Positions 54,063-59,114 of a stretch of 64,000 nucleotides of DNA are shown here, in pieces (the stretch's first letter is position 1; every line of letters begins with the position of its first letter). Source of the stretch: a bacterium (GTDB lineage: Bacteria; Armatimonadota; UBA5829); the NCBI GenBank assembly GCA_021371935.1, contig JAJFVF010000013.1, positions 186,001 to 250,000 of the forward strand, written 5' to 3'. The notes beneath the pieces are model-generated. The model was given only the letters and a program-made list of their open reading frames with translations. It was not told where the DNA came from and did no database searches. Made by a program: the position numbers and the translations under genes.

Positions 54063-55175
54063 ATGAGCGAAAATTACAGGGCAAAATATTTCAGCCGCAC
54101 AGAAAGTGGCTTTCCCGATGAGGTCGAGATTCTAGGGACAACATATGTGAAGGTCGAGGACCTCAGATATGGCACAAACCCACATCAGGGAGCAAGTTTC
54201 TATAGACCAAAAGGCTCATCAGGCCTGCCTTTTGGCGATATGATCCAGCTAAAGAGCGGCAAATCCGGTCTATCCGAGACCAACTATGGTGACCTCAACC
54301 ATGGCTCGAACATAGTGAAATACTTCGACAGACCTGCATGCGCCGTGATGAAACACTTGAACCCAAGCGGAGCCGCAGTCCGGGTCGGCGACCAGGACAC
54401 TCGCACTGTATATCTTCGCGCACGCGATGCTGATGCCATAGCAGCATTCGGCAGCACAGTAGTCTTCAACACAAAAGTAGACGCCGATACTGCAAAAGAG
54501 ATCATGACCACCGTGGTCGAGGTTGTTGCCGCGCCCGATTTCGACGATGATGCCCTGCAGATCCTAAACGATCATGATACATATAAGATGAACAAAGAGA
54601 TCAGGGTCATCAAGATGCCCAATATCTCAAGTCTTCCGAAATGGGTCGGTGACCATGCTGCTCCTACCATAAAGACTCTTGCAGATGGCACTGTCGTTGT
54701 GGCAGAACCGTTGCTGACAAACATCAAAAGTGCCGCGGACCTTGCACCCGCTACCACGGAGCACGCAAAACATGGCAAATTCGTTATTGAAAAGCAGCCG
54801 ACAGCCGCTCAGCTCGATGACCTGCTCTTCAGTTGGTATGTGAACCTCAACGTCCGCTCCAACGGCGTCGTGATCGCGAAAAACGGCGTAACGATTGCGG
54901 TCGGCACAGGCCAGCAGGACCGCGTCACTGCTGTCCGCCAGGCAATCCAGAAAGCCAAAGAGAAATTCAAAGGCAGTGAGGGACTCGAAGGAGCTGTGAT
55001 GAGTTCGGACGCATTTTTCCCTTTCCGCGATAGCGTAGATGCAGCAGCCGAGGCAGGAATCACGGCGATTGTCCAACCAGGAGGCTCAGTCCGCGATTGG
55101 GAGTCCATCAAGGCATGCAATGAGCATGGCATTACTATGGTCTTTACCGGCGAAAGGTGCTTCTCACACCACTAA
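54063..55175 (+). CDS. purH: Stand-alone AICAR formyltransferase (PurH C-terminal type)
   Basis: The 370-residue protein matches only the transformylase part of PurH, which formylates AICAR with 10-formyl-THF. The catalytic pair K97-H98 is in VMKHLNPSGAA. Other family blocks are DLRYGTNPHQGA, DRVTAVRQAI, SSDAFFPFRDSVDAAAEAGI followed by TAIVQPGGSVRD, and the C-terminal GERCFSHH. The N-terminal IMP cyclohydrolase (MGS-like) domain of ordinary PurH is absent, so cyclisation must be done elsewhere. The start follows CGAGGT. A repeat and a strong hairpin lie downstream. Confidence 0.88.
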   Translation: MSENYRAKYFSRTESGFPDEVEILGTTYVKVEDLRYGTNPHQGASFYRPKGSSGLPFGDMIQLKSGKSGLSETNYGDLNHGSNIVKYFDRPACAVMKHLNPSGAAVRVGDQDTRTVYLRARDADAIAAFGSTVVFNTKVDADTAKEIMTTVVEVVAAPDFDDDALQILNDHDTYKMNKEIRVIKMPNISSLPKWVGDHAAPTIKTLADGTVVVAEPLLTNIKSAADLAPATTEHAKHGKFVIEKQPTAAQLDDLLFSWYVNLNVRSNGVVIAKNGVTIAVGTGQQDRVTAVRQAIQKAKEKFKGSEGLEGAVMSSDAFFPFRDSVDAAAEAGITAIVQPGGSVRDWESIKACNEHGITMVFTGERCFSHH

Positions 55176-56678: not shown

Positions 56679-56744
56679 TCGGGTTCCTCAAATGGCATGC
56701 TATGGGTATCAACCTTGATGAATGTATACCCTCGGAGGAATCAT

Positions 56745-57497
56745 TTGACCGGCCTTGGGACAAAAGGCAAGCTGGGAATAGTCTTTGCACTGCATGAGGA
56801 AGCAGCAGGGCTTGCGCGCGTACTGGCCGAGTCCAGGTCAGCCGTCCGCATGCGAAATGGTGACATTGCGTGCCTCATAGGTCAACTGGAAGTGTATGCA
56901 GTCATAGGCGGGGTTGGGCAAGCCGGATGTCGGAAAGCGGTTAATACACTAATCGACTCCGGCGCCGGATGGATAATATCCTCTGGTTTTGCTGCCGGGC
57001 TTGACCCTGCCGCGAAAGTCGGAGATGTTGTTATCGCGGATCGAATAATCACGACTCAGCCCGGCCAAGCCACATATCAAAGTGACCCCGGACTCCTGGC
57101 AGCCCTGCCTCCTCGGGACACAAACAGAGAATTTTCCGTGTATACTTGTGATATGGTCTCTGTTGATAACGTCATAGGCAGCCCGGAAGAAAAGAAAAAT
57201 ATCTATTTGTCAACCGGAGCAGGGGCGCTAGACATGGAGTCATACGCGGCGGCCGCCGCATGCTGCAGGCGAGGGGTCCCATTTGCAGCCATACGGAGTA
57301 TAAGCGACACCGCATCCGACTCTATCCCCGAGCACATAATCACACTTATCTCAATCGAGAGCACCTGGAGACAATTGTTATATATAGCAAGCAGACCTCA
57401 TATATGGCAAAACGTCAGACAAATGCGTAAAAACGCCGGCAGCGCCGCAAACAACCTGGCCGATGTCCTGGGATTTATGTTGTTAAGGATGATATAA
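56745..57497 (+). CDS. Nucleoside phosphorylase-superfamily protein (MTA/SAH nucleosidase-like)
   Basis: The 250-residue protein has the family core: GIVFALHEEAAGL, VIGGVGQAGCRKAVNTLI, IISSGFAAGLDPAAKVGDVV, and ALDMESYAAAAACCRRGVPF followed by AAIRSISDTASD. These belong to nucleosidases such as MtnN and to hopanoid-associated HpnG-type proteins. The active-site Asp and Glu in DMESY and SDTASD are kept. TTG 56745 is chosen because GGAGGAA lies five bases upstream; longer frames lack a site. Substrate is not determined. It runs divergently from the UDG-like gene. Confidence 0.82.
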   Translation: MTGLGTKGKLGIVFALHEEAAGLARVLAESRSAVRMRNGDIACLIGQLEVYAVIGGVGQAGCRKAVNTLIDSGAGWIISSGFAAGLDPAAKVGDVVIADRIITTQPGQATYQSDPGLLAALPPRDTNREFSVYTCDMVSVDNVIGSPEEKKNIYLSTGAGALDMESYAAAAACCRRGVPFAAIRSISDTASDSIPEHIITLISIESTWRQLLYIASRPHIWQNVRQMRKNAGSAANNLADVLGFMLLRMI

Positions 57498-57638: not shown

Positions 57639-58376
57639 ATGCGGAGGCTGGCGATTACATTGGAACTGATTCCTGCAATAGATATGATGGACGGAAAGTG
57701 TGTCCGGCTGATGCAGGGTCGGTTCGATGATGTGACTATTTTCGCTGATGATCCGGCACAGATTGCGCGCCGGTGGGAAGATGAAGGCGCACAGCGTCTG
57801 CATCTTGTCGACCTCAACGGTTCACGCATGGGCGCACCGCAGGAGACCGAGTCTATCAAACGGATCGTTGCAGCCGTAAAGATTCCTGTCGAACTCGGCG
57901 GCGGCATCCGAAGCCTGCAAACGGCAAAGCAGATGCTGGATATAGGTGTTGGTCGAGTGATTATCGGCACATCAGCCGCTCTGGACAGCCATCTTGCCGA
58001 GACTATCTTCAAAGAACTCGGCGAGAGAGCGGTGTTGGGTGTGGATGCACGCGATGGATACGTGGCGATCAAGGGCTGGGAAGAGACCACGCGCGAAAAG
58101 GCAGTCGATTTCACGCTCAGAATGCAGTCTCTCGGCGCAAAGCGTGTGATATATACCGATATTTCGCGGGACGGCATGCTTGCAGGAACAAACATTGCTG
58201 CGATGAAGCATATGGCCCAATCTATCGATATTCCGGTCATTGCATCGGGCGGTATCAGCACAATCGAAGATATCAAACAGCTTAAATCGCTGGAAAATAT
58301 TGGAATAGAGGGAGCAATTCTCGGCAAGGCGCTCTATACAGGTGATCTTTCGCTTGCCGAGGCTCTGGCAATATAA
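57639..58376 (+). CDS. hisA: Phosphoribosylformimino-AICAR ribonucleotide isomerase HisA
   Basis: It isomerises ProFAR in histidine synthesis. The 245-residue (beta/alpha)8 protein keeps the catalytic aspartates: D15 in ELIPAIDMMDGKCVRLMQG, and D136 in GVDARDG. T173/D178 in YTDISRDGM are also kept. The two phosphate-binding loops are ELGGGIRSLQT and IIGTSAAL. The first eight residues may be extra: TTG 57660, immediately before ELIPAID, has a GGAGG 14 bases upstream. No other histidine genes are in the window except the paralogue 15 bases downstream. Confidence 0.93.
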   Translation: MRRLAITLELIPAIDMMDGKCVRLMQGRFDDVTIFADDPAQIARRWEDEGAQRLHLVDLNGSRMGAPQETESIKRIVAAVKIPVELGGGIRSLQTAKQMLDIGVGRVIIGTSAALDSHLAETIFKELGERAVLGVDARDGYVAIKGWEETTREKAVDFTLRMQSLGAKRVIYTDISRDGMLAGTNIAAMKHMAQSIDIPVIASGGISTIEDIKQLKSLENIGIEGAILGKALYTGDLSLAEALAI

Positions 58377-58391
58377 TTCTCTGGAGGAAAG

Positions 58392-59114
58392 ATGGAAGTA
58401 ATCCCGGGTATAGACCTGCTCGATGACAAATGCGTGTGTCCTGTGCACATGTCTTTTGGACAGAACACACCGCATTCTCACGACCCCGGGCATGTCGCCA
58501 AGACCTGGGCAGACCAGGGAGCACGTCGGTTGTATTTAGCCGATCTCGAAGGCGCCCGCATGGGCGAGCCTCAAAACCTCAAAGCGGTGAAAATGATAAT
58601 CGAAACCGCAAAGATCCCAGTCGACCTCGGCGGTGGAATACGAAGTGTAGATACTGCAAAACGGGTCCTCGACCTGGGTGTGGGTAGGATCGTAGTAGGG
58701 ACAAGCGCTGCATTGGAGGATCAGTTCGCAAAGGAGCTTTTCAGCACGCTTGGTGACAGGACAATATTGAGCCTGGCGAGCCTCAACGGCTACGTGGCTG
58801 TCCGTGACTGGCAGGCAAGGACCGATGAACGCGCGGATGATTTTGCAAAGCGCATGTGTGATCTTGGAGCGCGCCGCATTGTCTTCACAGATGTATCCCG
58901 AAAAGGCATGCATGGCGGCGTAAATATAATCGCAGTCAAACGCATGGCTGAGAAACTCAATGTGCCGATTATCGCATCCGGCGGAGTCAGCAGCCTTATA
59001 GATATCCAAGAATTAAAAGCCCTCGAACCAATAGGTGTCGAGGGTGTTGTTTTAGTTACTGCAATTTATTCTGGTACAATAAATCTTGCCGATGCCATAG
59101 CCGCCGGTATTTAG
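58392..59114 (+). CDS. HisA paralogue with lost catalytic residues
   Basis: The 240-residue protein aligns with the upstream HisA over its whole length and keeps D8 (VIPGIDLLDDKC), both phosphate loops (DLGGGIRSVDT, VVGTSAALED) and the barrel. But the general acid aspartate is alanine here (A129 in SLASLNG, against GVDARDG). D178 of HisA is lysine (K171 in TDVSRKGM), and the KCVRLMQG segment that holds a phosphate contact reads KCVCPVHM. It cannot be an ordinary ProFAR isomerase. It may be a binding subunit, a regulator or an enzyme with a new substrate. Spacing to hisA is 15 bases, so they are cotranscribed. Confidence 0.88.
   Translation: MEVIPGIDLLDDKCVCPVHMSFGQNTPHSHDPGHVAKTWADQGARRLYLADLEGARMGEPQNLKAVKMIIETAKIPVDLGGGIRSVDTAKRVLDLGVGRIVVGTSAALEDQFAKELFSTLGDRTILSLASLNGYVAVRDWQARTDERADDFAKRMCDLGARRIVFTDVSRKGMHGGVNIIAVKRMAEKLNVPIIASGGVSSLIDIQELKALEPIGVEGVVLVTAIYSGTINLADAIAAGI

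Follow-up and report, generated by a model that had tools for sequence, protein, structure and literature searches.

A tandem HisA paralogue that has very likely lost isomerase activity: sequence, descent and possible role

Described relatives of HisA

HisA, together with HisF, TrpF and PriA, is the textbook example of enzyme evolution by duplication. AglZ/HisF2, WbuZ and hisAF_rel are further members of the HisA/HisF superfamily, with functions outside core histidine synthesis. In two reports (PMC9088769, PMC13055916) the catalytic acid is given as D176 in Salmonella HisA (SeHisA) and D175 in PriA, with D129 and D130 respectively in support, and Arg19 of loop 1 recruits this acid. The same papers describe R83 and S103 of SeHisA (T105 in MtPriA for the latter) as gripping the remote phosphate, and W145 as stacking on the imidazole ring of ProFAR. 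The PriA paralogues SubTrpF2 and AdeK of the Actinomycetota are reported to keep one isomerase activity (TrpF or HisA) and to conserve the catalytic Asp11 and Asp175 (PMC13055916). HisZ, the regulatory component of ATP phosphoribosyltransferase, is an aminoacyl-tRNA synthetase paralogue with no catalysis of its own; it is an activator of HisG, its catalytic partner, and harbours the site that senses histidine (PMC9734150).

The protein considered here, HisA2, is encoded directly downstream of a canonical HisA (HisA1). It shares with HisA (TIGR00007; Salmonella 5A5W) the barrel fold, the GGGIR and GTSAA loops and residues D8, R84, T104 and W140, but lacks D129, the acid D171, the loop-1 R16 and the last-loop G222, and it scores below the family cut-off. 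With SubTrpF2 and AdeK it has in common a HisA-type barrel that was duplicated and kept beside a working isomerase; those proteins, however, retain the Asp175 equivalent, which HisA2 has lost. The resemblance to HisZ, a comparison of proposed role, would be that of a non-catalytic paralogue retained for histidine synthesis; HisZ has a different fold and serves a different step of the pathway. HisA2 also lies far below the cut-offs for AglZ/HisF2, WbuZ and hisAF_rel (88.8 of 310, 87.4 of 299.7 and 59.1 of 179.85 bits), and among the conserved neighbours of hisA2 there were no genes for sugar modification. PriA paralogues with shifted activity have already been published. For a non-catalytic HisA in tandem, devoid of the acid, our literature search, in which coverage of subscription journals was thin, listed no paper.

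The hisA1-hisA2 pair and its distribution

The window is the whole 64,000-nucleotide stretch that was analysed, positions 186001 to 250000 of contig C13 in genome G000 (3.54 Mb, 98% complete); coordinates below are window positions and all features lie on the forward strand. The first-pass annotation had described an intact hisA with a HisA paralogue of 240 codons 15 bases downstream, and both open reading frames were confirmed. The first, hisA1 (57660..58376), is a canonical ProFAR isomerase gene. Its product has all the catalytic residues and scores 262 bits against TIGR00007 (cut-off 228.95) and 240.9 bits against NF010112, just under the cut-off of 243. The frame is open upstream to an ATG at 57639, and automatic gene calling would place the start there, upstream of the orthologue start position. 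The TTG at 57660 is the likelier start because the homologous N-terminus (LELIPAID) begins at this point: the 13 orthologues aligned over the N-terminus start at the same position with L, V or M. From TTG 57660 the product has 238 residues. The 15-base gap (58377..58391) contains GGAGGA (58383-58388), a ribosome-binding-type site, ahead of hisA2, which runs from ATG to stop at 58392..59114. No RNA element near the pair reached the gathering score.

HisA2 is a member of the His_biosynth superfamily (PF00977, 197.8 bits against a gathering score of 23.6). It falls below both bacterial HisA equivalog cut-offs (TIGR00007, 190.9 against 228.95 bits; NF010112, 204.9 against 243 bits), and the same two HisA models are matched by all 13 aligned HisA2 proteins. 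It likewise falls short of the hisA-trpF (PriA) equivalog TIGR01919 (112.5 bits, cut-off 306.45) and of the hisF equivalog TIGR00735 (74.3 bits, cut-off 294.55), and the PRAI profile (TrpF, PF00697) is absent from its Pfam matches at E 0.001. The AF2 model (pLDDT 92.4, pTM 0.90) has low confidence only in loop 1, residues 18-23. The closest solved folds are those of PriA (2y88 and 3zs4, Z 31.9; rmsd 2.0 over 230 residues for 2y88); Salmonella HisA 5a5w gives Z 30.0 and rmsd 2.0 over 229 residues. Foldseek concurs that PriA and HisA are the nearest solved folds.

A search with HisA2 located the tandem pair in 14 of the 15 genomes of the window's family. The remaining genome, G007, has no HisA. 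Gene order is hisD-hisB-hisA1-hisA2 in two relatives (G004 and G005), and in G007 hisD runs off the contig end with only its start present; an assembly gap is thus the likely cause. A true biological loss of the pair in G007 was rejected on the truncated hisD, on the absence of hisA1 as well, and on the presence of hisG and hisI. The sole broken hisA2 frame, in G011, is located at a run of two N in the assembly. In the rest of the order, all four genomes carry a single HisA and no tandem pair. Across the phylum, a threshold of E 1e-20 gave matches in 212 of 291 genomes. In the part outside the family, with only the best 9 candidates scored in large genomes, 195 genomes had one HisA match and three had two, and no tandem pair was seen elsewhere among the 291. 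The three two-match genomes do not qualify because the second match sits on another contig and is 27-38% identical. We note two such non-adjacent HisA-like matches, L093 (G161:C97) and L092 (G250:C95); in the L093 piece the acid motifs DARDG and ATDG are intact. Scanning genome contigs by pattern returned two loci outside the phylum, L042 and L043; the former is a HisA whose DAKDG and SRDG motifs are the usual ones.

Active site, selection and descent of HisA2

Residues were counted in an alignment of 13 HisA2, 14 HisA1 and 14 other HisA rows, and their correspondence to published numbering was reasoned from motif spacing and alignment to 4wd0. D8 (58413..58415), the catalytic base position, is kept in 13/13 HisA2 and 14/14 HisA1 proteins, as the first-pass annotation had it. 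R84 (58641..58643) and T104 (58701..58703) are present in all 13; they correspond to the SeHisA phosphate grippers R83 and S103, roles taken from PMC9088769 and, for T104, also from PMC13055916. W140 (58809..58811), the equivalent of the stacking SeHisA W145 (PMC9088769), is found in 12 of 13 proteins and is missing in G008. T166 is kept in ten; the three proteins of genus g6 have Asn. R138 occupies the place of PriA R143 in 10/13, a mapping reasoned from published numbering.

Around these residues the site is altered. The loop-1 Arg16, present in 14/14 HisA1 and 14/14 other rows, is Cys in 12 HisA2 proteins and Asn in one (C16, 58437..58439), so that KCVR reads KCVC; the reported change in this loop is therefore real. 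H48 has become Tyr (12) or Phe, and K223 is Thr or Ser. At the catalytic-site Asp129 there is Ala in nine proteins and Gly in four (A129, 58776..58778), and at Asp171 there is Lys in all 13 (K171, 58902..58904); both positions are Asp in 28/28 other rows. A129 had been read as the lost general acid and K171 as the counterpart of a D178. Both replacements stand, but the papers name D176/D175, position 171 here, as the acid and D129/D130 as supporting residues, and the proper equivalents of K171 are D171 of HisA1, D176 of SeHisA and D175 of MtPriA. Gly139 is replaced in 13/13 by Asp (D139, 58806..58808), a new invariant acidic residue adjoining W140, and Gly222 of the last, reactive-end phosphate loop is replaced in 13/13 by Val (V222, 59055..59057); the other rows have Gly at both positions (28/28). 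HisA2 has also fixed G6 (13/13). The phosphate-binding loops had been described as kept, which holds for GGGIR and GTSAA but not for the last loop, where GKALY has become VTAIY. A fourteenth HisA2, read in two pieces, also carries K171, D139 and the VTAIY loop.

The recurrence of the same changes in all 13 aligned proteins is, on these counts, far beyond chance. We defined a HisA2-specific change as one residue found in at least 12 of 13 HisA2 proteins, absent from HisA1 and present in at most one other HisA. Eleven such fixed changes were found, including G6, C16, Y48, S127, D139, K171, G175 and V222. Every one of them falls in a barrel strand or a catalytic-side loop: these regions hold 11 such changes in 49 conserved columns, the rest of the protein none in 25 (Fisher p 0.007), with the region borders set by hand from the secondary structure of the HisA2 model. 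By the same rule HisA1 has two specific changes only, S55 and E62. Invariant columns in HisA2 number 27 of 87 in the catalytic loops against 11 of 80 in the helices. As the alignment presents it, the active site is replaced by a fixed new residue set and not eroded; the earlier description of the paralogue as catalytically degraded was thus right about the loss of catalytic residues and misses the remodelling. Loss of isomerase activity is very likely on this evidence. As R84, T104 and W140 are kept while positions 16, 129, 171 and 222 are replaced, we infer that HisA2 can still contact ProFAR at its AICAR-ribotide half and has lost the contacts at the ribosylamine (reacting) half. From the reaction, the remote phosphate would be part of the AICAR half.

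HisA2 forms one clade of its own (support 100/100) in two trees, of 43 and 40 rows. The 40-row tree omits the Nitrospirota row and the long rows G255p and G037p; G022p, a HisF, was left out of both. HisA1 is also one clade (99/91 in the 40-row tree). The sister family f2 has one HisA only, and in both trees this is placed with HisA2 (91/89 in the 43-row tree, 97/89 in the 40-row tree). This sister relation is not firm, because a tree with HisA1 and HisA2 as one clade was not rejected by the AU test (p 0.334). The f2 proteins (L044 in G016, L045 in G015) have a WQARTEER loop in common with HisA2, yet keep all catalytic residues, including D129 and D171. They may descend from the same duplicate as HisA2. 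From the two clades and the placement of f2, the duplication is at least as old as the family.

Within the genus, NG86 dN/dS is 0.030-0.057 for HisA2 (obtained for four of six pairs) and 0.032-0.051 for HisA1 (three of six), at pairwise dS values that are high (0.79-3.13) and with five of the 12 pairs yielding no dS. When genus g6 is left out, the remaining 45 genome pairs have a mean protein identity of 70.5% in HisA2 and 69.5% in HisA1; the full set of 78 pairs gives 60.0% and 63.1%, HisA2 appearing the faster only when g6 is counted. HisA2 is, by these measures, under strong purifying selection and conserved as well as HisA1. The first-pass annotation had proposed a paralogue duplicated and kept for a different purpose. 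The separate clade, the codon-level constraint and the retention of the tandem pair in relatives all support this.

Possible roles and the surrounding his genes

Our preferred reading, to which we assign a probability of roughly 0.4, is that HisA2 is a non-isomerising partner that binds a ligand of the ProFAR, PRFAR or AICAR type and assists HisA1 in the way that HisZ assists HisG. An old hisA duplicate would have kept the HisA barrel and lost ProFAR isomerisation. It would still hold the AICAR-ribotide half of such a ligand through R84, T104 and W140, its reactive end having been rebuilt and fixed (Y48, S127, D139, K171, V222). HisA1 and HisA2 would probably be made from one transcript by coupled translation, and HisA2 may then act on HisA1 as a ligand-sensing subunit, tuning flux or intermediate levels at step four of histidine synthesis.

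The main argument for a partner is that hisA1 and hisA2 stay together in the manner of hisH and hisF, whose products form a known complex. In G000 the located his genes are scattered (hisG on C6; separate places on C13 for hisI, hisD and the hisA pair; hisH-hisF on C21), and hisH-hisF is the only other close his pair located there; of the 12 genomes in which hisH is clear, 11 have it next to hisF. Further support comes from the tight spacing of the pair, the start of hisA2 falling between -10 and +25 bases relative to the end of hisA1 in 14/14 genomes (with overlap in G006, G009 and G010), while the flanks change between genera. G000, G014 and G011 have nucleosidase and S1 genes there, G004 and G005 have hisD-hisB, the three g6 genomes have a GlgC-like gene on the upstream side, and G002/G003, G006 and G013 have other genes; no conserved third gene was found beside the pair across the genera of the family. 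The argument from togetherness is nevertheless circumstantial and weak, because tandem duplicates start out adjacent. Several observations count against a partner: the HisA2-specific changes sit at the active site with none on the outer helices, HisA1 has just its two clade-specific changes, and HisA is active alone elsewhere. The missing W140 in G008 and the Asn166 of the g6 proteins also speak against the ligand-binding reading. HisA1 and HisA2 joined through the natural stop and folded together gave pTM 0.56 and no confident contact, from an alignment of only four rows.

A new enzyme is a serious if tentative contender. Here D8 would serve as base and K171 as acid or Schiff-base lysine, with D139 and Y48 helping, and the substrate would be a different one, of phosphoribosyl or AICAR type, from the neighbourhood of histidine and purine synthesis. 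The invariance of D8 and the fixation of K171, D139, V222 and G6 in 13/13 are in its favour, as is the concentration of both conservation and change on the catalytic side. PriA paralogues have moreover been recruited to new chemistry, AdeK being an example (PMC13055916). On the other hand, the sole linkage is to hisA1, no candidate pathway gene is conserved across the family, the known HisA catalytic ring is broken at three positions, and there is no substrate candidate. Of these readings we would favour the ligand-binding partner, by a small margin over a new reaction. A bolder and rather unlikely formulation makes HisA2 specifically an AICAR/ProFAR-binding regulatory subunit with a new lysine-aspartate pocket or, alternatively, the catalyst of a lysine-using reaction on AICAR ribotide. 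The fourth step of histidine synthesis, that of HisA, just precedes the point at which AICAR is fed back into purine synthesis, and we know of no control element at the HisA step. Such a subunit, if real, would be a control element at exactly this point, just before AICAR returns to the purines.

The tight spacing to hisA1 in all 14 genomes and the lost catalytic residues would suit a purely structural or chaperone-like partner of HisA1 that binds no ligand. Its pocket should then drift, yet the pocket is the most conserved part of HisA2, by the invariant-column counts given above, which makes this reading improbable. A second phosphoribosyl isomerase in a dosage or PriA-like role, its HisA or TrpF activity being weak or altered, would accord with a fold closest to PriA and with R138. 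We consider it hardly probable, given Lys at 171 in 13/13, the intact HisA1, the low score against the hisA-trpF model and a separate trpF in the same genome (PF00697, 151.2 bits). HisA2 as a replacement for TrpF was rejected on the presence of that gene. Recent decay or a neutral leftover of the duplication, which the lost catalytic residues and the broken frame in the deposited G011 sequence might suggest, is very improbable and refuted as far as sequence allows: dN/dS is 0.03-0.06, 14 of 15 genomes keep hisA2, frames in the relatives are open, and the G011 break falls at the 2-N junction, so that the first-pass annotation was correct that this is not a decaying pseudogene.

The pair amounts to a natural experiment, a HisA duplicate with half of its substrate site kept and the other half refixed, tightly coupled to its parent across a family. 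Standard complementation, binding and structural methods could be applied to hisA2, and the outcome would tell whether such a duplicate turns into a regulator or into an enzyme with a new reaction. The gene may meanwhile be labelled HisA in annotations, though its product is very likely not HisA.

With regard to the other his genes of the family, hisG and hisI are present in 15/15 genomes, hisD in 15/15 (a fragment at the contig end in G007) and hisH above its cut-off in 12/15. The idea that HisA2 fills a missing his step was rejected for the steps checked (hisG, hisI, hisD, hisH); hisB was seen by neighbourhood or Pfam only. G009 and G010 (L085 and L086; g6) have no clear hisH, and in G010 hisI directly follows hisF. 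In G008 hisH and hisF are on different contigs.

AICAR is also a by-product of HisF. Upstream of the pair in the window, a gene at 54063-55175 encodes only the AICAR transformylase portion of PurH (PF01808) and has no IMP cyclohydrolase domain at its N-terminus. Two MGS-domain matches in the same genome fall in open reading frames of 1059 and 1126 residues, which are probably CarB-type; for this reason no PurH-type IMP cyclohydrolase is recognised in this genome. Closer to hisA1, the gene at 56697-57497 encodes a nucleoside phosphorylase-type protein nearest to HpnG, below the cut-off of that model (105.2 of 187.1 bits).
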